Made by a program: the position numbers and the translations under genes
In this document: piece after piece, positions 9,180 through 55,385 of the stretch
Layout of the letters: the number at the start of each line of letters is the position of its first letter
Position numbering within the stretch: position 1 is the first letter of the stretch
Assembly (NCBI GenBank): GCA_014382015.1
Contig: JACNKN010000041.1
Coordinates: 1 to 64,000, forward strand
DNA length: 64,000 bases
Reading direction: 5' to 3'
Source of the DNA: Fidelibacterota bacterium
GTDB taxonomy: Bacteria; Fidelibacterota; Marinisomatia; Marinisomatales; TCS55
The notes under the pieces: generated by a model
Told to the model about the DNA's origin: nothing
Database searches by the model: none
What the model saw: the letters and a program-made list of their open reading frames with translations, nothing else

Positions 9180-10727
9180 ATGAATCATTTACTCAGTTGG
9201 ATCATTTGGCTTCCGGTTATCGGTATCGTTGCCATTGCCTTTATTCCTCGAGACAAAACGGAACTGATTAAACAGGTATCCGCAGCTGCCACGGGAATAC
9301 AATTGGCCTTGGCCATATACTTATGGCGTATCTTTGATGCGGCTACCGGAACTTTCCAGTTCATGGAAAGAGCTGAATGGATCCCATCATTCAACATTAC
9401 ATACATCCTGGGCGTAGACGGTCTCAGTCTTCCCATGGTGATTCTCATGGCACTCATTGGATTCGTCAGTGTGTTCGTCAGCTGGAATATTAATACGGCA
9501 GTGAAAGGGTATTTCTCACTCTTTTTATTGTTAAATACAGGTGTCATGGGCGTTTTTCTATCCCTGGATTTTTTCCTGTTTTACATCTTTTGGGAAGTGA
9601 TGCTTCTGCCCATGTATTTCCTTATTGGGATGTGGGGTGGTCCCCAGCGGGAATATGCAGCGATTAAGTTTTTCCTCTATACTTTATTTGGTTCAGTTCT
9701 TATGCTTATCGCAATCTTAGCCTTGTATTTTACGTGCGGTAATACATTTGATATGCTGGTCCTCATGGATACTGCTCCAACCGCTTTGAGTGGTGTATTA
9801 TGGTGGGGCATGAGTGCCATAAAGGTTATTTGGGTATTATTGTTTATTGGGTTTGCCATTAAGGTACCCGTATTTCCATTCCACACCTGGCTGCCTTTAG
9901 CTCATGTGGAAGCACCCACGGCTATTTCTGTAATTTTAGCCGGCGTTCTTCTGAAGCTTGGAGTATATGGAATGTTAAGAATCAATTATACCATGCTTCC
10001 TGATGGTGTATTTTGGTTTGCCGGCGCCTTGGCTGTGCTCGGATTGATCAATGTGATTTGGGGTGCCATGTGTGCCTTGGCCCAGAAGGATTTGAAGAAA
10101 TTGGTTGCCTATTCATCGGTGAATCATATGGGATATGTTCTCCTTGGCATGGCGGCGGTGATAGCTGCTTCCGGAATGAATGGGGACAACCTTATTAGTG
10201 CCCAAGCTGGAATTAATGGTGCCGTTTTCCAGATGTTTAACCACGGTACAATTTCGGCCATGCTGTTTATTTTGGTCGGTGTGATTTATGATCGCGCCCA
10301 TCATAGAGATATCGAGGGATTCGGCGGATTGGCATCCCAGATGCCCATTTATACCGGGTTTGTGGCCGTGGCATTTTTTGCAGGACTTGGCCTACCTGGA
10401 TTCAGTGGTTTTGTCAGCGAATTCATGATTTTCATTGGTGCATTCCCCGTATTTAAAACAATTGTCATTATTTCCACTATCGGAATTTTACTCAATGCTG
10501 CTTATTTCCTGTGGGCATTCCAACGAATGTTTTTTGGTCCAGCGAATGAGAAATATAATGATCTGCCGGAAATAAATAAACGTGAACTATTTACAATAAT
10601 TCCTTTGGCTGTGATTACGCTTTTTCTGGGAATATATCCGCGTCCATTCTTAGATATGATTTCAGCAACAATGAATGTTCTGATTGAACAGGTTGTGTCC
10701 CTTGGGGGACTGGCCAGTGTTATGTAA
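9180..10727 (+). CDS. nuoM: NADH-quinone oxidoreductase subunit M
   Basis: Antiporter-like membrane subunit, 515 residues. Motifs include LGVDGLSLPMVILMALIGF near residue 78, FFLFYIFWEVMLLPMYFLIG near residue 130 with the key glutamate, and PFHTWLPLAHVEAPTAISVI near residue 238. YSSVNHMGYVLLG and HGTISAMLFILVG are also family segments. It lies between nuoL and nuoN in the standard order with short gaps, as part of the same transcription unit. Confidence 0.96.
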   Translation: MNHLLSWIIWLPVIGIVAIAFIPRDKTELIKQVSAAATGIQLALAIYLWRIFDAATGTFQFMERAEWIPSFNITYILGVDGLSLPMVILMALIGFVSVFVSWNINTAVKGYFSLFLLLNTGVMGVFLSLDFFLFYIFWEVMLLPMYFLIGMWGGPQREYAAIKFFLYTLFGSVLMLIAILALYFTCGNTFDMLVLMDTAPTALSGVLWWGMSAIKVIWVLLFIGFAIKVPVFPFHTWLPLAHVEAPTAISVILAGVLLKLGVYGMLRINYTMLPDGVFWFAGALAVLGLINVIWGAMCALAQKDLKKLVAYSSVNHMGYVLLGMAAVIAASGMNGDNLISAQAGINGAVFQMFNHGTISAMLFILVGVIYDRAHHRDIEGFGGLASQMPIYTGFVAVAFFAGLGLPGFSGFVSEFMIFIGAFPVFKTIVIISTIGILLNAAYFLWAFQRMFFGPANEKYNDLPEINKRELFTIIPLAVITLFLGIYPRPFLDMISATMNVLIEQVVSLGGLASVM

Positions 10728-10736
10728 GGAATCTGC

Positions 10737-12227
10737 ATGAGCAATCTCAACAGCTTAACATATTTTTGGCCAGAACTTATTCTGACTATTACGGTATTGA
10801 TTTCCGTCGTGGCCGATTTGTTTTACCGAAAAGAAGAATCCTACAAGGTAGCCTGGTGGGTCTTGGGTGGACTTATATTCACTATGCTTGCCATTCGATT
10901 GGGTGGAAGTGCTGTAACCGACTTATTTATGGGAACGATTGCACTGGATCCCTTTTCTGTATTTTTCAAAATATTGATATTGATTGCAACCGTTTTTGTG
11001 ATTCTCATGAGTTTTAACAGCAATGAGCTAAAGGATTATCGCGTAGGCGAATATTACTCAGTATTAGCCATTATGGCTTTTGGATTGTTTTTAATGGCAT
11101 CTGCCATTGATATATTGATGGTTTACCTTGCCATAGAAGTGGTATCAATCATGTCTTTCTTCTTGGCCGGTTATTTAAAAAAGAATCCCCACAGTAATGA
11201 AGCTTCTTTAAAATATGTAATCTATGGTGCTTTTTCTTCCGGGATTATGCTCTATGGTTTGAGTATCCTGTTTGGCTTGACGGGCACAACCAAGTTTATG
11301 GAAATGCAGGCGGCGATTGCAGGGTTGAGTCCCGATTCCAATTTAGCCCTCATTCTTTCTGCTGTATTCATCCTGGTTGGTTTCGGTTATAAAATTTCAG
11401 CAGTGCCGTTCCATTTTTGGACACCGGATGTTTATGAAGGATCACCCACCACCATTACAGCTTATTTATCCGTCGCACCGAAAGCAGCGGGTTTTGCCAT
11501 TTTAATTCGTTTTTTCAACCAGGTATTTGGAGATAGTTCTGCCTTGGTGTCAGAATCATGGCAGGCATTGAATCACATTCCATGGCCTCAACTCATGGGT
11601 GTTTTAGCTGCTGCAACAATGACGGTAGGAAATTTGGTCGCCATTCAGCAAAAGAGTGTGAAACGAATGTTGGCCTATTCCAGTATCGCCCATGCAGGAT
11701 ATATGATGATGGCGCTTCCTCTCATGTCTGAAGCAGGTGTGTATGGTATCATGATATACCTTCTCATGTATTTATTTATGAACCTGGGTGCTTTTTTTGT
11801 GGTTATTTATATCCAAGGAAAAACGGGTGGGGAAGATTTCGAAGACTTCAATGGGTTAGGATGGAAAATGCCCTTTGTAGGCGCCGTCATGGTTTTATTT
11901 ATGTTATCCCTGACTGGTTTGCCTCCCACTGCAGGATTTATCGGTAAATTCTATTTATTTGCTGCCGTGATTAAAGCGGGTTCGCAATATTATTGGTTGG
12001 CATTTGTAGGGGTCCTGAATAGCGTTATTTCACTTTATTATTATTTTCGTGTGGTAAAACACATGTACTTTAAAGGTGAGCGAAGCGAAACTGTTGTAAT
12101 GCCGGAATCAAACTTAGTGACAACTGTGCTACTTTTTCTTGCAATCCCAACCTTTATATTTGGATGGTATTTCGGACCGGTTGCAAATTGGGTTAGTGAA
12201 TCTTTGGTTATTTTTCAAGGAATGTAA
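10737..12227 (+). CDS. nuoN: NADH-quinone oxidoreductase subunit N
   Basis: Third antiporter-like subunit, 496 residues, last gene of the complex I cluster. Motifs include YLAIEVVSIMSFFLAGYLKK near residue 130, PFHFWTPDVYEGSPTTITAY near residue 224 and LAYSSIAHAGYMMM near residue 314. With nuoN the cluster holds the eleven subunits of the membrane arm and the Q module. The NADH-oxidising N module (nuoE, nuoF, nuoG) is absent from the window. A 35-bp gap separates it from nqrA. Confidence 0.96.
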   Translation: MSNLNSLTYFWPELILTITVLISVVADLFYRKEESYKVAWWVLGGLIFTMLAIRLGGSAVTDLFMGTIALDPFSVFFKILILIATVFVILMSFNSNELKDYRVGEYYSVLAIMAFGLFLMASAIDILMVYLAIEVVSIMSFFLAGYLKKNPHSNEASLKYVIYGAFSSGIMLYGLSILFGLTGTTKFMEMQAAIAGLSPDSNLALILSAVFILVGFGYKISAVPFHFWTPDVYEGSPTTITAYLSVAPKAAGFAILIRFFNQVFGDSSALVSESWQALNHIPWPQLMGVLAAATMTVGNLVAIQQKSVKRMLAYSSIAHAGYMMMALPLMSEAGVYGIMIYLLMYLFMNLGAFFVVIYIQGKTGGEDFEDFNGLGWKMPFVGAVMVLFMLSLTGLPPTAGFIGKFYLFAAVIKAGSQYYWLAFVGVLNSVISLYYYFRVVKHMYFKGERSETVVMPESNLVTTVLLFLAIPTFIFGWYFGPVANWVSESLVIFQGM

Positions 12228-45417: not shown

Positions 45418-46525
45418 ATGGAATTATTTGATTTAAAAGAACAATACGCTACCGCTCAAAAAAAATACACTGAATTGCGGAGGTACCTTTGACTTATCTG
45501 TTAAGCAAACTGATTTAGAAAAAATGCGTCAGGCATCTGCTTCGCCTGATTTTTGGAACGATAATTTGGCAGCATCTGCCCTCCTCAAAAAAATTTCTAT
45601 TATTGAGAAAGAAATATCTCTTTGGGAAGTATTGGATACAATGCATGGAGATGTGGAAGTCCTCTTAGAATTCGCTGATGAGGGAGAAGCAGATTTAAAA
45701 GAAGTTGATTCAGAACTAAAAAAGTTTGTGAATACCATAGAGGATTTAGAACTAAAGATGATTCTCGGCGATGAGCAGGATACACAAAATGCCATTATGA
45801 CAATTCACCCCGGCGCCGGTGGTACGGAGAGCCAGGATTGGGCGGAGATGCTTTACCGTATGTATTCACGGTGGATTGAGCGAAAGGGATTTAAAAAAGA
45901 AATAATGGATCTTCAGCCGGGAGATGAGGCGGGAATCAAAGATTTGACCATGGAGGTTAAGGGGGATTATGCTTACGGGTTGTTGAAAGCAGAGGCCGGT
46001 GTCCACCGTTTGGTGCGGATTTCACCATTTGATTCAAATAGTCGCCGTCATACATCTTTCGTATCCGTATTTATTTATCCATCATCAGAAGAAGAAATAG
46101 AAATAGAAATTGATCCGGGTGACTTGCGAATTGATACCTATCGCGCCAGCGGTGCCGGAGGTCAACATGTGAATAAAACCGATTCAGCCATTCGCATTAC
46201 GCATATTCCTTCAGGTATAGTTGTTCAATGTCAAAATGAACGAAGTCAACATAAAAACAAAGCGTCTGCAATGAAGGTATTAAAGGCGCGGTTGTATCAA
46301 TCAGAAGTTGAAAAAGAAAAAGAAGCCATGAAAGATTTGGAAGATACCAAGATGGATATTGGTTGGGGGAGTCAAATTCGTTCTTACGTTTTTCATCCGT
46401 ATAACATGGTAAAAGACCATCGGACAAAAGAGGAATCCGGAAATGTATCGGCTGTGATGGATGGAGATATTGATAAATTTATCAAAGCCTTTTTAATGAA
46501 CCAATTGGGCGAAATTGTAGAATAA
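45418..46525 (+). CDS. prfB: Peptide chain release factor 2, with programmed +1 frameshift
   Basis: Releases peptides at UGA and UAA. Translation starts at ATG 45418 and reads 24 codons to an in-frame TGA at 45490-45492 inside AGG-TAC-CTT-TGA-C. A +1 shift at CTT continues as GAC (45491-45493) to 46525, giving about 368 residues. The anticodon-like SPF is in VRISPFDSNS and the catalytic GGQ in SGAGGQHVNKT (near residue 247). The AGG before the shift site is part of a GGAGG Shine-Dalgarno-like stretch that stimulates the shift in other bacteria. A predicted ORF starting at 45524 misses the first 35 residues. Confidence 0.95.
45476..45493 (+). promoter_or_regulatory. prfB: prfB +1 programmed frameshift site
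   Basis: The site contains the internal Shine-Dalgarno CGGAGG followed by TACCTTTGAC. Low release factor 2 slows termination at TGA and favours the +1 shift, so RF2 controls its own level. The spacing of three bases between AGG and CTT matches the classic site. Confidence 0.9.
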
Positions 46526-46577
46526 GAGGAAGAAGTATAGTATGTAGTATAATTTTAATTATACCGTTTTTCATAAA

Positions 46578-47311
46578 ATGACTGAATTCAAAACATATAA
46601 ACATAATCCGCCCCATTTATTCATGGGGAATACAAAATACTTTATAACGGCTTCTACTTATGAAAGGGAACCATTCCTCAGATTATCATCTGCAAAAGAA
46701 AAATTATATTCTTCCCTGCAAATCGAGTTTACTAAATACCATTGGGAGATTGAAGATTGGGTGATTTTGGATAATCACTATCATTTAATGGTAAATGCAC
46801 CGGAAGACCCAACCACATTACCAAATATCTTTAGAGAAGCACATCGTTTTTCGGCATTATGGATTAAAAAGAATCTAAATATTCTATTAAATAATTTAGA
46901 ATCGATCAATTTGGATGTCGATATTTTAGGGAAGGATATTTTGGAGTCCGATCCTTTGTCCATCAACCGTGTTGATAGAGAACACACTCTGTTAATCAAT
47001 AAAGATGATTTAAAACGGTTAAATCGAAAGAAAGGGTTCTCATTATTGAATTTTAGAGATGAATTAACGCGGTTAATTCACTCAAAAAAGTTTTTTATAA
47101 TTATTGGGATACCTGCATCACGTACGAAAAATCCTATTTTTCACGATTAAATTATATTTGGTATAACCCGGTTAAACATGGTTATGTAGATTCCCCAGAA
47201 AAGTGGAAATATGGTAGCTATTATTATCGATTTAAGGAAGAAGAGAAAGAATTGAATGCCCTTTTGAAAAGATATCCATTTCAGGATATTAAAATTGAGG
47301 ATGACTTTTAG
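46578..47311 (+). CDS. RAYT-like REP-associated tyrosine transposase, split by a -1 frameshift
   Basis: Y1-type HUH transposase related to REP-associated tyrosine transposases. Frame one (46578-47150) holds GNTKYFITASTYEREPFL near residue 16 and the HUH motif DNHYHLMV near residue 67. It then leaves the family and stops. The C-terminal RAYT signature, YWDTCITYEKSYFSRLNYIW and YNPVKHGYV, is in the -1 frame and runs to the TAG at 47309-47311. The frames join exactly at A_AAA_AAG (47084-47090), in the correct register for -1 slippage, next to a T6 run. It could be programmed frameshifting, a mutation or a sequencing error. Confidence 0.8.
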
Positions 47312-47323
47312 TTCCGGTGGTAT

Positions 47324-47413
47324 TTATAGAAAATTGCATCTGATTATGCCTGCTAGCGCCAAAAAAAGTCCCACCAAAACAAGTATTATAATTTTTTCGT
47401 ATATTTGAACCAT
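47324..47413 (-). CDS. Possible 29-residue hydrophobic peptide
   Basis: A short minus-strand frame in the RAYT-CsgG gap encodes MVQIYEKIIILVLVGLFLAL plus nine residues, nearly all one transmembrane helix with charged ends. Such peptides resemble small membrane proteins or type I toxins in shape only. No ribosome-binding site is evident. It may be chance. Confidence 0.2.
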   Translation of the reverse strand: MVQIYEKIIILVLVGLFLALAGIIRCNFL

Positions 47414-47437
47414 AATTGTTTGCAGTGATCAAATGTT

Positions 47438-48553
47438 ATGATTCTTTATTCACATATTATTAAATCCGCTACCTTTTTAAAGGTGTCACGGATATTTATA
47501 TTCACTATCTTATTAACTAATATCTTCGCTCAAGATATTAAACCTAATATTGCTGTATTGGATTTCGACGCAAACAATATTACAAAAAGTGAAGCGGCGA
47601 TTCTCACCGATAGACTACGAACAGAATTATTTGAAATTGGCGCTTTTAATGTTATTGAGCGATCCGTGATGGAAGAAGTTCTCAAAGAGCAGGGCTTTCA
47701 ACAATCTGGCTGTACCACGGCTGAATGTGCGGTAGAAGTAGGAAAATTAGTTGGGGTGGAATTTATGGTTGGGGGCGCCATAGGTAAACTGGGCAGCATT
47801 TTTACGGTTACTGCAAGAATAATAAATGTTGAGACAGGGGAATTAACAATTCAGGCAAAAGAAGATTGTCCTTGTCCCATTGAAACATTATTGACAGAAA
47901 CGATTCGAAATATTGCCCTAGAATTAAGCGGTTTAAAAGCCATTAGTCGTTCAAATTATTCTTCTGGTTCTCTATATCTAACATCTACACCATCTGGCGC
48001 GAGTATCAGTATAGATAATAGGCCAATAGATGGTACGACACCCCTGACTATTGAAAACCTTTCCTCAGGTGAGCATTTCGTTTCTGTAGAGAAGGGAAAT
48101 TATACCGGCAAAAAAGTACTCAATATTGAACCGGAAATAATCAATAGACATACAATACGGCTTGAATTATTTACCGTGAACCTGAATGTATTTTCTACAC
48201 CAGAGGGCGCTACTGCAATTGTGGATGGGAAACGATATGGTTTGACCCCCGTATCAATTATTGACTTACCCGTTGGTTCTCACAAACTAGAGGTTGAAAA
48301 ACCAGGGTTTGTTAAACATACCCGCACTGTTTTTCTTGATAAGGATATTGTGAATAAAGCTGAGGTAACTTTAGAGATTGCGCCAAAACTTTCAATCATC
48401 AGTGAGCCAAGTGGTGCCAAAATAAATATTGTAGGCTTCCCACTGAATTACACCACTCCCCAAAATAGAATTGTATTGAACCCGGGTGAATACCAAGTTA
48501 TTCTAACTAAACAAATTATGAATCTTACACCGAAAGTTTTACTCTTTCGGTAG
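47438..48553 (+). CDS. CsgG-like domain plus PEGA repeats, N-terminal part of a frameshifted gene
   Basis: Exported protein, 371 residues in this frame. A signal peptide covers about residues 1-31 (cleavage after NIFA). Residues 36-165 form a CsgG/FlgO-like nucleotide-fold domain: PNIAVLDFDANNITKSEA, VIERSVMEEVLKEQGFQQSG, LVGVEFMVGGAIGKLG. PEGA repeats follow at about 181-246, 249-315 and 318 onward, with motifs STPSGASISID, STPEGATAIVDG and SEPSGAKINI. In the third PEGA the frame breaks after VILTK near 48511 and ends in an unrelated tail. The rest is in the -1 frame (48511-49107). Likely a periplasmic or envelope protein. Confidence 0.75.
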   Translation: MILYSHIIKSATFLKVSRIFIFTILLTNIFAQDIKPNIAVLDFDANNITKSEAAILTDRLRTELFEIGAFNVIERSVMEEVLKEQGFQQSGCTTAECAVEVGKLVGVEFMVGGAIGKLGSIFTVTARIINVETGELTIQAKEDCPCPIETLLTETIRNIALELSGLKAISRSNYSSGSLYLTSTPSGASISIDNRPIDGTTPLTIENLSSGEHFVSVEKGNYTGKKVLNIEPEIINRHTIRLELFTVNLNVFSTPEGATAIVDGKRYGLTPVSIIDLPVGSHKLEVEKPGFVKHTRTVFLDKDIVNKAEVTLEIAPKLSIISEPSGAKINIVGFPLNYTTPQNRIVLNPGEYQVILTKQIMNLTPKVLLFR

Positions 48554-49107
48554 GAGATAAAAAAACAATTGATGCATCACTTACAAGAAAAGTTGGTTCT
48601 GTTCATATTGAAAGTTCAGACCCATCAAATGTTGAATTTGTGTTCCTTAATAACAAATCGATATATGGGACCACGGCACAAACATTGAATAATATTCCTA
48701 CCGGAAATTATACGGTACTTTTTACAAAACCGGGATATTTAAAACTTGAAAAGGATATTAATGTTGAGTGGAATAAAAGAACATCGGTTTTCGTCCAATT
48801 AGTCTCAATTGCTTCAATTGAAAAAGAAATCCAATCATTAAAAAGGAAAAGAAATATTTGGCTGGGGAGCGGTGCATTTCTTGCAGGTTTAGGCGGCTAT
48901 TTTAAATATGCTGCAAATAAACATTATGATGAGTATCAAACAGCGGAATCAAATGCAACTGCACTTTTTGAACAATTGGAAAAAGAAGATAAATTGGCAC
49001 CCATTTCATTGGGATTGGGTGGCGCTTGTTTTACAAGGATCGTACCCATTAATACTGAAATAAAGGAATTAAAAAATAAAATTGAAACTGAGGGTGTGAG
49101 AGAATGA
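48511..49107 (+). pseudogene. C-terminal part of the CsgG-PEGA gene, -1 frame
   Basis: Open frame continuing the preceding protein without its own clear start: TNYESYTESFTLSVGDKKTI completes PEGA repeat three, a fourth PEGA-like unit follows (SSDPSNVEFVFLNNKSIYG), then a helix-rich tail with a membrane segment WLGSGAFLAGLGGYFKY and a closing coiled region. Restoring one A in the AAA at 48509-48511 would join the parts into about 555 residues. So this is either a recently broken gene or a one-base error. A gene caller may report a separate protein starting at GTG 48640. Confidence 0.7.
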
Positions 49108-49235
49108 ATTCAGGAAATATATTCTTAATATACCGATGAATCACTAAACAGATGTTCACCGAATTGAACTAAGGTGCGGATTATGCCTAAATTCTAAAGG
49201 TGATTGACATAGATAATTATCGAAAGGACACCAAA

Positions 49236-49448
49236 ATGCTAAAAGAAAATATTCAACAAGAAGTATTAGAATTAAAATCAATTGAAAAAATTCAATTGGT
49301 TGAACTCCTGCTCGAAAGTTTAGATAAACCAGATATGGAAATCCAAAATGAATGGATTGAGGAATCTGAAAAAAGATATGATGCTTATAAGTCAGGAAAA
49401 GTAAAAGCTTTTTCGTATGAAGAAGTGATGAATATGTTGGATAAATGA
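49236..49448 (+). CDS. Type II antitoxin, addiction-module component family
   Basis: A 70-residue protein of the small antitoxin family often called putative addiction module component (TIGR02574/PF09720-like). The family pattern is visible: LKSIEKIQLVELLLESLDKP near residue 15, then EWIEESEKRYDAYKSGKVKA and a short tail. I chose the ATG at 49236 with AAGGA upstream; a longer GTG start at 49200 is possible. It overlaps the downstream toxin gene by four bases, the normal layout. Confidence 0.85.
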   Translation: MLKENIQQEVLELKSIEKIQLVELLLESLDKPDMEIQNEWIEESEKRYDAYKSGKVKAFSYEEVMNMLDK

Positions 49449-49738
49449 ATTTAATATTTGTCCATCCTGCTGATAAAGAATTCATTGACACTTATCATTA
49501 TTATGAAGATCAATTAATTGGCTTAGGAGATCAATTTTTAAATGAATTCAATAAATCAATAAAAATAATTATCAACCATCCAACAATCTGGAATAAGGTG
49601 GGTAAAAGAACAAGAAGATCTTTAATCAAAAGGTTTCCGTTTTTAATTCTATATGTATTCGAAAAGGATACAATCCATATTACTTGCATAGCCCATCAAC
49701 ATCGGAATCCGGATTATTACATTGATAGAATGATTTAG
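49445..49738 (+). CDS. ParE/RelE-family toxin
   Basis: A 97-residue toxin of the ParE/RelE fold, partner of the antitoxin just upstream. Typical segments are an N-terminal strand MNLIFVHPADKEF, a helical hairpin with YYEDQLIGLGDQFLNEF, and a C-terminal sheet RSLIKRFPFLILYVFEKDTI followed by ITCIAHQHRNPDYY. The last motif (H-x-x-R-x-P-x-Y-W-like) is common in ParE-like toxins. Whether it attacks gyrase or ribosome-bound mRNA cannot be told from sequence alone. Confidence 0.85.
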   Translation: MNLIFVHPADKEFIDTYHYYEDQLIGLGDQFLNEFNKSIKIIINHPTIWNKVGKRTRRSLIKRFPFLILYVFEKDTIHITCIAHQHRNPDYYIDRMI

Positions 49739-49771
49739 GTCTTAGGAAAATATTAATTTATTTAAAATAAA

Positions 49772-51716
49772 ATGAAAAATTCAACAACTATACCATTTCT
49801 GATTTTCGCATTATTTTTTTTCAACATGTGATCAACCTGAGCGGGTTCGAGATAACCCATTTGACAGATATACCACTTTGGGAAAAAATGAATGGGCACC
49901 TTCAAATTTGCAAGCCCAAGTTTTAAATGATTCTCAAATCAAACTCACATGGTCCCAAAAAGAAACACGAATCTCAGGATTTAAAATAAGCCGCAATTCA
50001 GGTGGTGTTGATTATTCTCAAATTACAGAATTAGCAGCAAATATATCTGATTTCACGGACTCGGGATTAAAATTCGGTAGTACGTATACTTATCGTATAA
50101 ATGCATTCGCCGATGAGAATTTATCCGGTGATGCCACTTCTAACCCAACAAATACAAGTTTTCCATCCCCGACTGATTTGATGGCTACTCCCATCGATGA
50201 CCAATCAATTCAACTGACTTGGCAAGATAATTGCAATTTTGAAAAAGGGTATAGAGTAGAGCGATCTTCAGACAGTACAAACTTTAGCCAAATTGCGGAA
50301 TTAGGAGAAAATATTACTGAATTCAAGGATACAATATTGAAATATGGACCAACATATACTTACCGAATTAAAGCATTCACAAATGAAAATGAATCGGGGT
50401 ATGTGACAGTTGAAGGAACCAATACAATTTTCCCTGAACCAACCAATTTAACAGCCACAGGCATAGACGACCAAAGCATTCGATTGACTTGGTCGGACAA
50501 TTGTTCTTTTGAAAAAGGATACAGAATAGAGCAATCAGATGATGGAACACCCTTTAGCCAAGTCGCGGAATTAGATGAAGATATTACTGAGTATATTGCT
50601 ACGGAATTGAAATTTGGTACGACATACACTTATCGAATAAGAGCATTCACCGATGGGAATAATTCTGGGTATGCCACCTCGACGGCGACGAACACAATTT
50701 TTCCGCCACCGAGTAATTTAACTGCTACACCTATTGATGACCAATCTATTCAACTAACTTGGAGTGATAACTGTAGTTTTGAAAGCGGATACAGAATAGA
50801 ACGGTCAGTTGATGGATCTAACTTTAGCCAAATTGCGGAATTAGGTGAAAATTCCTCAGAATACACTGATCCTGGTTTGACACTGGGGAATGATTATACC
50901 TACCGTGTTAAGGCGTATACGAAGTTTAACGAATCAGCGTATTCTAAGGAAGAACTCGTCAATTTCTTGAAGGACTGTCTTGGAGTTTGGAATGGATCAG
51001 CCGTTATAGATTGTAATGGTGATTGCGATGGTAGCGCAATTATCAATATATGTAGTATTTGCGTTGGGGGTAATACAGGTATTGATGAAAACTATTGTGA
51101 AACTGTAACTGATATTGATGGAAATGATTATAAAACAGTGAAAATTGGGGGTCAGGCATGGATGGCCGAAAATTTAAAGGTAACTAAGTATAGAGATGGT
51201 AGTGCCATTCCAAAAGTACACAGCAATTCAGACTGGTCAAATCTCACCACGGGTGCCTACGCTGTTTATAATGATGATGATGGCAACGCAAATACTTATG
51301 GTTATTTGTACAATTGGTATGCAATCACTGATAATAGAATCATTGCACCTACAGGTTGGCATGTGCCAACAGATGATGAATGGACGACACTAATAGGATT
51401 TCTTGGTAATGATCCAGGAGGAAAACTAAAAGAAACAGGAACAGCCCACTGGAACAGCCCAAATACAGGGGCCACCAACGAGAGTGGCTTTACAGCTATA
51501 CCTGGTGGTTCCCGGGCCTCCAGTATTTACTCCAGCTCCGGCGGTTACTTTAGTTCTGTGGGCAGTCAGGGCCTATATTGGTCTTCAACTAAGTGCAGTA
51601 GTTGCAATAACAATCGTGACGCATTGTCCTTGATTCTGCTTCACGATAGAGCAAATGCATTACGCTACTCTGGTAGTATGAGCGGTGGCAAATCTGTTAG
51701 ATTAATCAGGGACTAG
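49772..51716 (+). CDS. Lipoprotein with four Fn3 repeats and a FISUMP domain, frame broken at a T8 tract
   Basis: A surface lipoprotein candidate. The ATG at 49772 starts a signal peptide (MKNSTTIPFLIFALFF) that runs into a stop after a T8 run (49814-49821). One T fewer would continue as STCDQPERVRDN with lipidated Cys and join the long frame (open from before 49878 to 51716). The mature part has four fibronectin type III repeats of 90 residues, a Cys-rich linker (VIDCNGDCDGSA) and a C-terminal FISUMP domain (IGGQAWMAENLKVTKYRDGS, GYLYNWYAI, PTGWHVPTDDEW, GLYWSSTKC, KSVRLIRD). A gene caller will start at 49878. The T8 tract could be a phase-variation switch. Confidence 0.75.
49888..50955 (+). 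repeat. Four tandem 270-bp Fn3-encoding repeats
   Basis: Units begin near 49888, 50158, 50428 and 50698 with an exact 270-bp period. Each encodes one Fn3 module with the recurring LTATPIDDQSIQLTW, CSFEKGYRIERS, FSQIAELGEN and TYTYRIKAF segments. Units two to four are closest to each other, and unit one has diverged. This is protein-domain duplication, not a CRISPR array. Confidence 0.85.
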
Positions 51717-52006
51717 AAATGAGTTCACTGCGAAAACAGTATTTTTCAAAGAGTATCATTTTGTGGAATTATTCTGAACATTAGCCAAGATTTTACTTGA
51801 AAACGAATGCGATTCCATAGAAACCCTCCACGAGAACAAATTGATGCCAATAAGAGACTCGGAATTTCTGTTCGGTGCGTGAGGGATTAGGGATTTTAGA
51901 TATAATAACAATTCAAAACCACCATATTATTTTGGGATCTAAAAGTATAAATGAATTGAAAAAAACGAGCTAACCACTTTTTTATTAATGAGTTTTTAAA
52001 TACATC
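51717..52006. other. 290-bp intergenic region without recognised features
   Basis: AT-rich spacer between the FISUMP lipoprotein gene and the nuclease-like gene. A TATAAT occurs at 51901-51906 but has no -35 box at a suitable distance. No hairpin terminator, RNA gene or open frame stands out. Confidence 0.4.
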
Positions 52007-52996
52007 ATGAAATTAAACAATAGTTTTAAAAATTGTATTTGTCAAAATTTACCTGTTCAGTCGAGTGGAAATGTACTTAAAGAATTTTCCAAAGTGCGTG
52101 TGGGATGTCCGGCATTAAAAAAGATATTTTTGCCAGATGAAATTTGGAAGGATTTCAATGTAAATATAATAAAAATGCTTTATAATGAAACTTCAACCTA
52201 TAATTATAGCTCATTTCTTGCATATGATGATGAAGAACTGAGTAATTATACAAACCCTGTCCATCGTTATTTATTAGATGAAAATGGAATTATTAGGAAA
52301 GATGCAGTCGGAAATAATCATATAAAAGATTTGCAAGAAAATTGGATGAACAAATCCGCTGATTATGAAAAATTTGAAAAATATCGGATATATCAGAGGC
52401 ATCTTAAAGAATTGCAATACGCATATTATTTAGAAAATAATGGGTGGACGATAGATAATTTATCAGCATTGGGTGGCAGACATGATATTAGCGGATCCAA
52501 TCCAAAAAATATTAAATATGATATTGAAGTGAAATATATCGGGACGGAGGAGTGGTTTAACCAAAGTATGAAAAAAGAGTTAAGGAATGAAGAAAATTAT
52601 TTTCAACCCTCTTTTCATCACTCAAGAAATTATTTACTTTTAATTATTTTCCAAGCATGTAAACAACTGATTGAGCCAAAGATTGATACACCGAAAAATG
52701 GCTCCAAACAGATTGGGGAAGATAATAAAAAACTCAAAATGGTTTCCATTCTAATCGAACATTTTAATCATTATGAAGTGTCAATCGATCAAAATCTATT
52801 GAATATGAAAGAATTAGAATTTATCGGAGGAGGTGAAAGTTGGTTAAAAGTCCTGAAAGATACAGACCAAAAAAAGAAACCTGAAAACACTAAAATTGAT
52901 TTGAAGAATGTTACTCAATCAGTCGATGAAATTAGAATATTTTCAATTCGTGGGAATAGTTTTCATCTTGAAAGTAAAATGATTAAAAATAATTAA
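52007..52996 (+). CDS. PD-(D/E)XK nuclease-like protein, unknown
   Basis: A 329-residue protein with no family I can name. The middle resembles a PD-(D/E)XK nuclease core: helix KELQYAYYLENNGWTI with E135, strand GGRHDISG with D160, and strand YDIEVKYIG with E174 and K176, giving the pattern E...D-x13-E-x-K. The C-terminal third is Lys-rich and polar. No methyltransferase or recognition subunit is adjacent. It lies between two toxin-antitoxin pairs, so a mobile-element or defence role is possible. No close ribosome-binding site is visible. Low GC resembles its island neighbours. Confidence 0.55.
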   Translation: MKLNNSFKNCICQNLPVQSSGNVLKEFSKVRVGCPALKKIFLPDEIWKDFNVNIIKMLYNETSTYNYSSFLAYDDEELSNYTNPVHRYLLDENGIIRKDAVGNNHIKDLQENWMNKSADYEKFEKYRIYQRHLKELQYAYYLENNGWTIDNLSALGGRHDISGSNPKNIKYDIEVKYIGTEEWFNQSMKKELRNEENYFQPSFHHSRNYLLLIIFQACKQLIEPKIDTPKNGSKQIGEDNKKLKMVSILIEHFNHYEVSIDQNLLNMKELEFIGGGESWLKVLKDTDQKKKPENTKIDLKNVTQSVDEIRIFSIRGNSFHLESKMIKNN

Positions 52997-53195
52997 AGAT
53001 AAATATTGAAGTTGCTTTTCACAATCTTTGCGGAAGGTAATGTTTTGTATCAAGCACCTGATTATTTCGCATATCGGTTGGTTCACAGTTCATCCAAATC
53101 TTCCCCAAAGTTGTTTTGTACCGCAACGCTCTAAGTTATTACTTTTATTAAATACTCCAAATGGTGTAATTTACATAAAACATGCAGGTACAAAA

Positions 53196-53450
53196 ATGAA
53201 AATTCAAACCAGTGTAAGAGTTGAGGACAGTTTCTATAAAGAAGCAAAATCTGTATTTAGAAAATTCGGTCTAAGTTTTGGAGATGCGGTTAATATATTT
53301 ATCGCCAAAGTTGCCATGGAACAAAAGATTCCTTTTGAATTGAGTTTGCCCACAGAAGAATTGGAGATGCGTGCTAAAAATATAAATAATAAAGAAAATA
53401 TCGAAATTTATGAAACAGCCAATGAATTGTTTGAAGAATTAGGAATCTGA
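53196..53450 (+). CDS. RelB/DinJ-family antitoxin
   Basis: An 84-residue ribbon-helix-helix antitoxin. The DinJ pattern is clear: IQTSVRVEDSFYKEAKSVF, then FGLSFGDAVNIFIAKVAMEQ and KIPFELSLP near residue 48. The C-terminal acidic region (ANELFEELGI) would wrap the toxin. I chose the ATG at 53196; a longer frame from 53028 has 56 extra residues unlike the family. It is followed by the toxin gene after 2 bp. Operon autoregulation by the pair is usual for this family. Confidence 0.9.
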   Translation: MKIQTSVRVEDSFYKEAKSVFRKFGLSFGDAVNIFIAKVAMEQKIPFELSLPTEELEMRAKNINNKENIEIYETANELFEELGI

Positions 53451-53452
53451 GA

Positions 53453-53743
53453 TTGCTTCAACTCATTGTTGAAAAATCTTTTAAAAAGGATTTGAAGCGA
53501 GATAAAAAAAGTGGAAAATATTCAGAGAAAGATTTCAAATTATTAAAATCAATAATATCGACGCTCCAAAACAAAAAAGTTATTATTCCAAAGTATAAAA
53601 GGCATCCGCTCAAGGGTAAAATAGGAGATTTCGAATCAATTCATATAAAACCGGATTGGTTACTGATTTTTAAAGTTGATTTAAAATATTTATATCTAAC
53701 TATGCTTGGGAAACATACCCAAGTTTATCAGAAATTTAAGTAA
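53453..53743 (+). CDS. YafQ-family mRNA interferase toxin
   Basis: A 96-residue RelE-superfamily toxin, partner of the DinJ-like antitoxin. The YafQ signature HPLKGKIGDFESIHIKPDWL is at about residues 56-75, with LLIFKV and a C-terminal LGKHTQVY. The catalytic histidines of YafQ align with H56, H68 and H87. YafQ cuts mRNA on the ribosome. The start is TTG at 53453 with no ATG nearby. Frame and codon use match the rest of the island. Confidence 0.88.
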   Translation: MLQLIVEKSFKKDLKRDKKSGKYSEKDFKLLKSIISTLQNKKVIIPKYKRHPLKGKIGDFESIHIKPDWLLIFKVDLKYLYLTMLGKHTQVYQKFK

Positions 53744-53876
53744 ATACATTCTCCCGGACCTGAAAGTTAAATATTACTTGAATTGTTTCCTGTTTAATCG
53801 AATCAAAATTGTACTGTAATTTCGTTGCTAAAATTTTAATACTTTATGAACCAAACAGCCCATAGAAATTAGATTA

Positions 53877-55385
53877 ATGAATAAAAATCAACCCAGCCCA
53901 GAATCGAATAAAAGCCTTAATCAAATCATTGATTTTCGGAAAGAAAAATTAACCAAACTTCGGGAAGCAGGTGTGGACCCCTATCCGCAAAAATATGAGC
54001 CCACCCATTTTAGTTCAAATATCCTTGATGATTTTGAAAACCTGGAAAATAAAGATGTAAATGTTGCAGGGCGTATCATGTCCCTTCGGAAAATGGGAAA
54101 AGCTTCATTTTTTCACATTCAGGATGGAAAAGGAAAAATTCAGATTTTTATTCGTAGAGATGATGTGGGTGAAGATAATTATTCCCATTTTAAATTGTTG
54201 GATATGGGGGACTTTGTGGGCGTTCAGGGATATGCCTTTAAAACAAAAATGGGCGAAATATCTGTCCACGCAAATTCAATTACAATTTTATGCAAATCCA
54301 TTCGTCCTTTACCGGTTGTGAAAGAAAAAGAAGGGGAAACTTTTGATGCCTTCAGCGATAAGGAACAGCGCTATCGTAATCGCCATTTAGATTTAATTGT
54401 GAATCCGGAAGTAAGAGATACTTTTGTTAAGCGGGCAAAAATCATTCGTGGACTCAGAGATCATTTGGATAATTTAGGGTTTTTAGAAGTGGAAACGCCT
54501 GTCCTTCAACCACTCTATGGCGGTGCTAATGCCCGGCCTTTCACGACACATCACAATGCTCTGGACCAGCAACTTTATTTGCGAATTGCTGATGAGTTAT
54601 ATTTAAAAAGACTGATTATTGGTGGAATGGATCGCGTCTACGAAATTGCCAAAGATTTTCGCAATGAAGGAATGGACCGGAATCATAATCCTGAATTCAC
54701 TATGTTGGAATTTTATTGGGCATATGCAGATTATGAAGACAATATGAATTTGGTAGAAAATATGATTCAAAGTGTGGCAAAAAATATAGATGCATTGCAG
54801 GTGACTTGGGGTGAAATGGAAATAGATTTATCCAAATCATTTCAGCGACGTCCTTTGCTAGAATTGCTGAAGGATGCAACGGGTGAAGATTTAACTGAAG
54901 CATCTATTGATCAAATGAAAAAAGTATGTAAATCCAATAATATCGAAGTGGAAGAAAATGCCAATTATGGACAAATGCTTGATGAATTAATGAGCGCATT
55001 GGTAGAACCAAATCTGGTGCAGCCCACATTTGTGACGGATTATCCAAAAGCTATTTCGCCATTAGCGAAGAAACATCGTAGTGGAAATCCACATTTGGTT
55101 GAGCGATTTGAATTATTTATTGGCGGTGCGGAATTTGCCAATGCGTTTACAGAATTAAATGACCCCATTGATCAAAGGGGACGGTTTGAATCCCAAGCCC
55201 GGTTGGCAGAAGGCGGAGATGATGAAGCTCATCCTGTTGATGAAAATTTTCTTCAGGCCATGGAAACTGGAATGCCACCTACGGGCGGTGTAGGGATTGG
55301 TGTGGATCGCTTGGTCATGCTTCTTACAGAAAATGTGACCATTAAAGATGTGATCCTTTTTCCAGCTATGCGAACAGAAGAATAA
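53877..55385 (+). CDS. lysS: Lysyl-tRNA synthetase, class II
   Basis: Charges tRNA-Lys, 502 residues, the standard length. The N-terminal OB-fold anticodon domain covers about residues 60-170 (NVAGRIMSLRKMGKASFFHI). Catalytic motifs: ETPVLQPLYGGANARPF (motif 1 region, about 206-222), FRNEGMDRNHNPEFTMLEFY (motif 2, about 261-280) and GVGIGVDRLVMLLT (motif 3, about 476-489). It marks the return from the accessory region to conserved genes. Confidence 0.96.
   Translation: MNKNQPSPESNKSLNQIIDFRKEKLTKLREAGVDPYPQKYEPTHFSSNILDDFENLENKDVNVAGRIMSLRKMGKASFFHIQDGKGKIQIFIRRDDVGEDNYSHFKLLDMGDFVGVQGYAFKTKMGEISVHANSITILCKSIRPLPVVKEKEGETFDAFSDKEQRYRNRHLDLIVNPEVRDTFVKRAKIIRGLRDHLDNLGFLEVETPVLQPLYGGANARPFTTHHNALDQQLYLRIADELYLKRLIIGGMDRVYEIAKDFRNEGMDRNHNPEFTMLEFYWAYADYEDNMNLVENMIQSVAKNIDALQVTWGEMEIDLSKSFQRRPLLELLKDATGEDLTEASIDQMKKVCKSNNIEVEENANYGQMLDELMSALVEPNLVQPTFVTDYPKAISPLAKKHRSGNPHLVERFELFIGGAEFANAFTELNDPIDQRGRFESQARLAEGGDDEAHPVDENFLQAMETGMPPTGGVGIGVDRLVMLLTENVTIKDVILFPAMRTEE

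Follow-up and report, generated by a model that had tools for sequence, protein, structure and literature searches.

A REP-associated tyrosine transposase gene of Fidelibacterota, one base short at an in-gene REP-like palindrome, with a frameshift heptamer as the probable by-product

Transposases of the TnpAREP group, or repetitive extragenic palindromic (REP)-associated tyrosine transposases (RAYTs), can carry REPs within their own genes. In the published account of TnpAREP subclasses (PMC6006769, in excerpt), REPs lie in frame inside subclass 2.4 genes, generally between the HUH motif and the catalytic tyrosine, and some members of subclass 2.8 are said to carry a REP insertion; in the excerpted text, subclass 2.8 is restricted to Cyanobacteria within the sample used there, with related sequences in other phyla. 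Here, we describe a gene of this type in a 64,000-nt stretch of a Fidelibacterota contig (JACNKN010000041.1; the whole stretch is referred to as the window), from a lineage to which, among named organisms, Candidatus Neomarinimicrobiota come closest. The gene is divided over two reading frames that meet at the heptamer A_AAA_AAG. With a probability of roughly 93%, we read it as a 2.8-like RAYT/TnpAREP gene whose coding sequence lacks one base where an embedded REP-like palindrome has its right foot, whether through mutation or through an error of the assembly, the slip register being a consequence and not the cause of the split. Our verdict is a gene of a known kind that has decayed.

The 0 frame runs from an ATG at 46578 to a TAA at 47148–47150. 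The −1 frame, open between 47063 and a stop codon at 47309–47311, overlaps it by 85 nt. The N-terminal half contains the HUH motif DNHYH (first codon at 46770) in a Y1_Tnp core (PF01797; E = 9.1e-5, 23 bits, i.e. at the cut-off of 23) and matches positions 8–88 of the NCBIfam profile NF047646 (REP_Tyr_transpos; E = 3.4e-13). The C-terminal half, with the motif string NYWD...RLNYIWYNPVKHGYV, matches the complementary part of this profile (positions 108–145; E = 5e-11) and is aligned by phmmer to the E. coli TnpArep 4er8 (E = 3.8e-5), to which a profile of the relatives also matches (E = 4.3e-14). Either half alone scores below the curated NF047646 cut-off, and the intact orthologue scores above it (82.9 vs 80 bits); this orthologue is encoded in G007, a genome of the same genus (labels of the form Gxxx and Lxxx denote genomes and sequences of relatives, respectively, and G000 is the window's own genome). 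In the relatives, the tyrosine before I-x-x-N-P aligns with the putative catalytic tyrosine of 4er8, which we take to be Y115, and on this alignment and residue rests our assignment of the presumed catalytic tyrosine codon of the window gene to 47153–47155. A first-pass annotation of this DNA had placed the C-terminal RAYT signature in the −1 frame, and both the profile match and the tyrosine codon bear it out. As the codon lies 3′ of the 0-frame stop, HUH motif and tyrosine do not share a polypeptide in the window, and the 190-aa 0-frame product, which keeps the former and lacks the latter, should be inactive as a nuclease. A second RAYT copy was not found in the window's genome.

Relatives are intact at the corresponding site. 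For a scan of the join, we used the window copy and 12 relatives (L002–L008, L010 and L013–L016), leaving out distant sequences (L009, L017–L022) and those representing the same genes as L003 and L004 (L011, L012). All 12 are single-frame across the join and hold the HUH motif and the YI..NP tyrosine in the same polypeptide, and in every one of them a slip heptamer in register is absent from the join. This was the comparison that the first-pass annotation had put forward for judging its own idea, a new, programmed control of a REP transposase, and the outcome speaks against that idea. Elsewhere in the intact gene, an in-register A_AAA_AAG is found in three of the 12 (L003, L004 and L010), and L007 has A_AAA_AAA ~8 codons upstream of its join. 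The gene of G007, at the same site just 3′ of prfB, stays open through the join.

The two frames do meet in the register used by dnaX, as was first noted: the heptamer is preceded by TC, giving the 0-frame codons TCA AAA AAG, and is the sole in-register X_XXY_YYZ within the overlap. The nearest relatives encode Lys-Lys ahead of [VI]-F-Y, written AAA AAA G in G007, whose gene is one base longer there than that of the window. The earlier suggestion of decay or an error at A6 or T6 holds for the kind of event and fails for its site: both runs are as long as in the orthologue, so that a change in either was rejected, and the length difference falls where the foot of the in-gene REP palindrome borders the A-run on its left. 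Loss of one base right before AAA AAA G converts the upstream frame to xxA AAA AAG, and the slip register thus comes automatically with the lesion. In the sequence of events that we propose, one base would have been lost at the right palindrome foot, immediately 5′ of the two AAA codons and the G; the slip register would have arisen as a by-product, and the 0 frame would now end at 47150, cutting the presumed catalytic tyrosine off the HUH half.

The in-gene palindromes of the window RAYT (Table 1) sit between the HUH and tyrosine halves, the join coinciding with the right foot of a REP/REPIN-like pair. The conserved foot of this repeat is TGGA followed by N-T; the right foot in the window no longer fits the foot pattern. 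In G051 (L011), the corresponding site contains TTTTGGA, two palindromes and TCCAAAA and folds (as DNA) into two hairpins on a stem (z = −7.24). A structure prediction for this long-linker protein gave a mean predicted local distance difference test score of 52.7, low in and after the linker and too weak for fold searches. Nine of the 19 genes examined have a long linker with an insert (those of the window, G007, G051, G058, G155, G203 and G211, and two in G221). Each of these nine contains at least one hairpin (15 in total; 500 synonymous resamplings averaged 0.92 and reached 4 at most), vs none of the ten short-linker genes. When the nine right-hand palindromes were aligned by their TCCA foot, 94.4% of positions were paired and 16 cells had changed on both sides; no shuffle out of 500 scored as high, a control that related sequences can exceed, and sliding the partner gave at most 5 such cells.

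Table 1. Positions of the features at the RAYT locus, given in window coordinates.
Feature	Position	Strand	Basis
N-terminal half of the RAYT/TnpAREP gene, 0 frame, 190 aa	46578..47150	+	Open reading frame; NF047646; Y1_Tnp PF01797; HUH motif
C-terminal half, −1 frame, NYWD...NYIWYNPVKHGYV	47063..47311	+	Open reading frame; NF047646; phmmer to E. coli TnpArep 4er8
A_AAA_AAG heptamer at the join, 0-frame slip register	47084..47090	+	Sequence; one-base length change at its left edge
Left REP-like palindrome in the coding sequence, degenerate foot	46959..46979	+	Palindrome analysis
Middle palindrome in the coding sequence, degenerate	47007..47025	+	Palindrome analysis
Right REP-like palindrome in the coding sequence, length change in its foot	47061..47079	+	Palindrome analysis
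Variable island with the RAYT, between prfB and the gene of a class II tRNA synthetase	46540..53876	.	Congener comparison

Regarding the history of the insert, the left in-gene palindrome of G051 is identical to its flanking copies, and the right ones of G155 and G007 are identical to each other and differ at no fewer than four positions from any flank. No consistent pattern was found of in-gene palindromes being closest to the flanks in the same genome. The insert looks inherited in the clade of G155 and G007. In the tree, the nine long-linker genes fall into two groups; a single clade, and with it a single insertion event for all nine, was weakly rejected (approximately unbiased test, p = 0.043 and 0.035), losses in place of a second gain being possible. 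This speaks weakly for more than one origin of the insertion. One could speculate that a REP pair gained at least twice at the same protein site, its palindromes kept by compensatory change within coding DNA, lets the transposase use its own recognition element to act upon the gene or mRNA encoding it, in self-cleavage or feedback control. We consider this unlikely; if true, the window would be a case in which damage at that element broke the gene.

The repeat is also present outside the gene. A search for the foot-plus-palindrome pattern over 18 genomes returned 106 matches, compared with 2 in the control, with matches in 16 genomes and a maximum of 14 per genome; the window's genome contributed 5 (control, 0). 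REP units lay within 800 nt of the RAYT at 12 of the 15 loci examined. None was found flanking the gene within this distance in the window, G007 or G005, and the REPs of the window are confined to the gene; a candidate REP-like sequence in the 150 bases downstream was rejected, its matches elsewhere in the genome being only weak. Other REP-like copies in G000 are located at C38:15612-15740, C48:2688-2738 and C20:322-343, two of these being inverted pairs. The RAYT gene of G051 is accompanied on both sides by REP units of the same build, partly in 66-bp tandem (L069, 1427-1566 and 2253-2424), of which the upstream 66-bp units are in frame with the RAYT open reading frame (ORF) and could extend its N-terminus. 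At G180:C36:3265-3837, four near-identical REP feet follow one another on one strand with a spacing of ~180–200 nt, unlike the paired units elsewhere.

A −1 slip programmed at A_AAA_AAG, yielding full-length RAYT at a set ratio and thereby limiting transposase activity, would account for the correct heptamer and register at the only slip site of the overlap, and across the join its product would agree with the relatives. However, the two-frame layout and heptamer are conserved in none of the 12 relatives, and the register follows from a one-base length change. Nor were stimulators evident: shuffled sequences fold as well as the 80 nt 3′ of the heptamer (z = −0.44; pseudoknots were outside the test), and the 24 nt upstream contain no Shine-Dalgarno-like tetramer (AGGA, GGAG, GAGG or AGGG). 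Among the 15 papers listed, out of 172 found, in a literature search on RAYT and frameshift, none deals with programmed frameshifting in these genes as far as titles and abstract openings show. Since the relatives are intact, stimulators are missing and the register has a simple origin, we rejected the programmed frameshift as highly improbable, which removes one candidate for such control in RAYT genes. Slippage could also be accidental. Bare A_AAA_AAG is slippery in E. coli, and after a real mutation it might yield some full-length protein, so that activity would be reduced and not lost. The slipped product would again match the orthologue at the join, but there is no sign of selection for slippage, and we regard this version as doubtful. 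Several observations do weigh against a one-base lesion with the register as its by-product. The match to the slip register is exact, and constraint persists in the C half, which a working frameshift would likewise predict. When one-base losses were simulated in the intact G007 gene, only 10 of 540 left an in-register A_AAA_AAG in the overlap (any X_XXY_YYZ, 30 of 540). Moreover, G007 provides the only same-genus orthologue among the genomes compared, and its own C-terminus is altered, the relatives' C-terminal end being lost after EKW. As for the motif itself, in-register A_AAA_AAG occurs eight times in 45 stop-to-stop ORFs of at least 200 aa (54 kb; 0.15 per kb); it is uncommon after a randomly placed loss and automatic after one abutting two AAA codons and a G. 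A general caution follows: a single base lost before two AAA codons and a G creates a perfect dnaX-type register, and motif and register alone prove little.

In the 39 codons that follow the break, comparison with G007 counted 2 differences for 95.7 nonsynonymous and 15 for 21.3 synonymous sites, and the first 102 codons of the gene have nonsynonymous and synonymous divergences (dN and dS) of 0.065 and 0.49. Since the post-break codons are still constrained, the lesion would be recent or an assembly error, and we consider ordinary gene decay or an assembly error most likely. That the organism has an intact RAYT and only the assembly is missing a base is a serious prospect, if the lesser one. 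It is favored by the draft state of the genome (90 contigs), by the lack of relaxation in the codons 3′ of the break and by a second apparent frame break ~1.4 kb away, where the adjoining CsgG/LpoB-PEGA gene (47438-49107) looks split near 48510 into two ORFs in different frames, each matching PEGA; this split, outside the G007 comparison, was read from the frames and from domain matches. A pair of lesions less than 1.5 kb apart would fit local decay as well as a poor spot in the assembly. Against an assembly error, the feet of the in-gene REP are eroded by substitutions as well, which looks like real divergence, and of the 182 ORFs of G007 that match the window well, only the RAYT is matched in two frames, which led us to reject widespread sequencing error there. 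This comparison gave 102 events, the other 101 being in-frame stops within alignments, mostly of minus-strand ORFs, that were not counted as frameshifts. The reverse comparison of 191 window ORFs gave 109 events, one of them two-frame, in the minus-strand window ORF 10505-10822. Decay is not rare within the set of RAYT genes. A RAYT match was present in 32 of 245 genomes of the phylum; among the 57 matches listed, four have a stop inside the match, some genes are partial, and the window gene alone appears as two matches at one place. The gene of G211 diverges from its relatives after YNPV. RAYT pseudogenes with frameshift or nonsense mutations have been published (PMC3686654, in excerpt).

The gene resides just 3′ of prfB, which encodes a peptide chain release factor with PCRF and RF-1 domains (ORF 45524-46525), at the start of a variable island of ~7.3 kb. 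Among 12 congeners, nine have the counterpart of the 53877 gene immediately after prfB; G007 has the RAYT, and two loci end at a contig edge. By Pfam, the gene at 53877 encodes a class II tRNA synthetase, and we read it as putative lysS. The island further contains an addiction-module gene (49200-49448), a RelB/YafQ pair (53028-53743), an fn3/Fib_succ_major protein (49878-51716) and an ORF of 329 aa without a Pfam match (52007-52996). Rfam and tRNA scans of 44–56 kb gave no match. Relatives of the RAYT were not found in phage records, and plasmid records yielded one distant match. At 45479-45493, prfB itself has GGAGGTACCTTTGAC, with CTT TGA C and an upstream Shine-Dalgarno-like motif, and the same site exists in G007; this is presumably the site of the programmed +1 frameshift classically seen in release factor 2 genes.

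How does the locus compare with described systems? Judged by the motifs published for TnpAREP subclass 2.8 (NHYH, W[YH] and YIHYNP; PMC6006769, in excerpt), the window protein resembles this subclass: NHYH is present, YIWYNP is near YIHYNP, the N-terminus is proline-rich (HNPPH) and length is variable in the group. For W[YH], IWYNY or IWHNY is seen in some relatives only (G180, G212 and Tenebribacter), and the window has FYNY. Further in line with subclass 2.8, REPs flank the gene in most relatives and a REP insertion is present in some members; unlike it, the repeat foot here is TGGA rather than 5′ GT[AG]G, and the window gene is broken. The motifs given for subclass 2.4 in the same excerpted source (NH[IFV]H, WQ and YIxNNP) do not fit NHYH and YIWYNP. 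Like the REPIN and REPtron systems (PMC3116915 and PMC8266576, in excerpt), our set features two inverted REP-like palindromes near and inside a transposase gene together with dispersed copies; in contrast to them, copies are few (five in G000, at most 14 across the 18 genomes) and the window has no REP outside the gene within 800 nt. Intragenic REPs and RPEs, as far as the excerpted description goes (PMC3733652), are likewise palindromic repeats in frame in coding sequences, but mostly in DNA repair and unrelated genes, whereas here the transposase gene itself is the host. The in-gene REP element is thus of a known kind, and it takes the published finding of REPs within genes of the TnpAREP group into a deep lineage of bacteria, here with covariation in the coding DNA.
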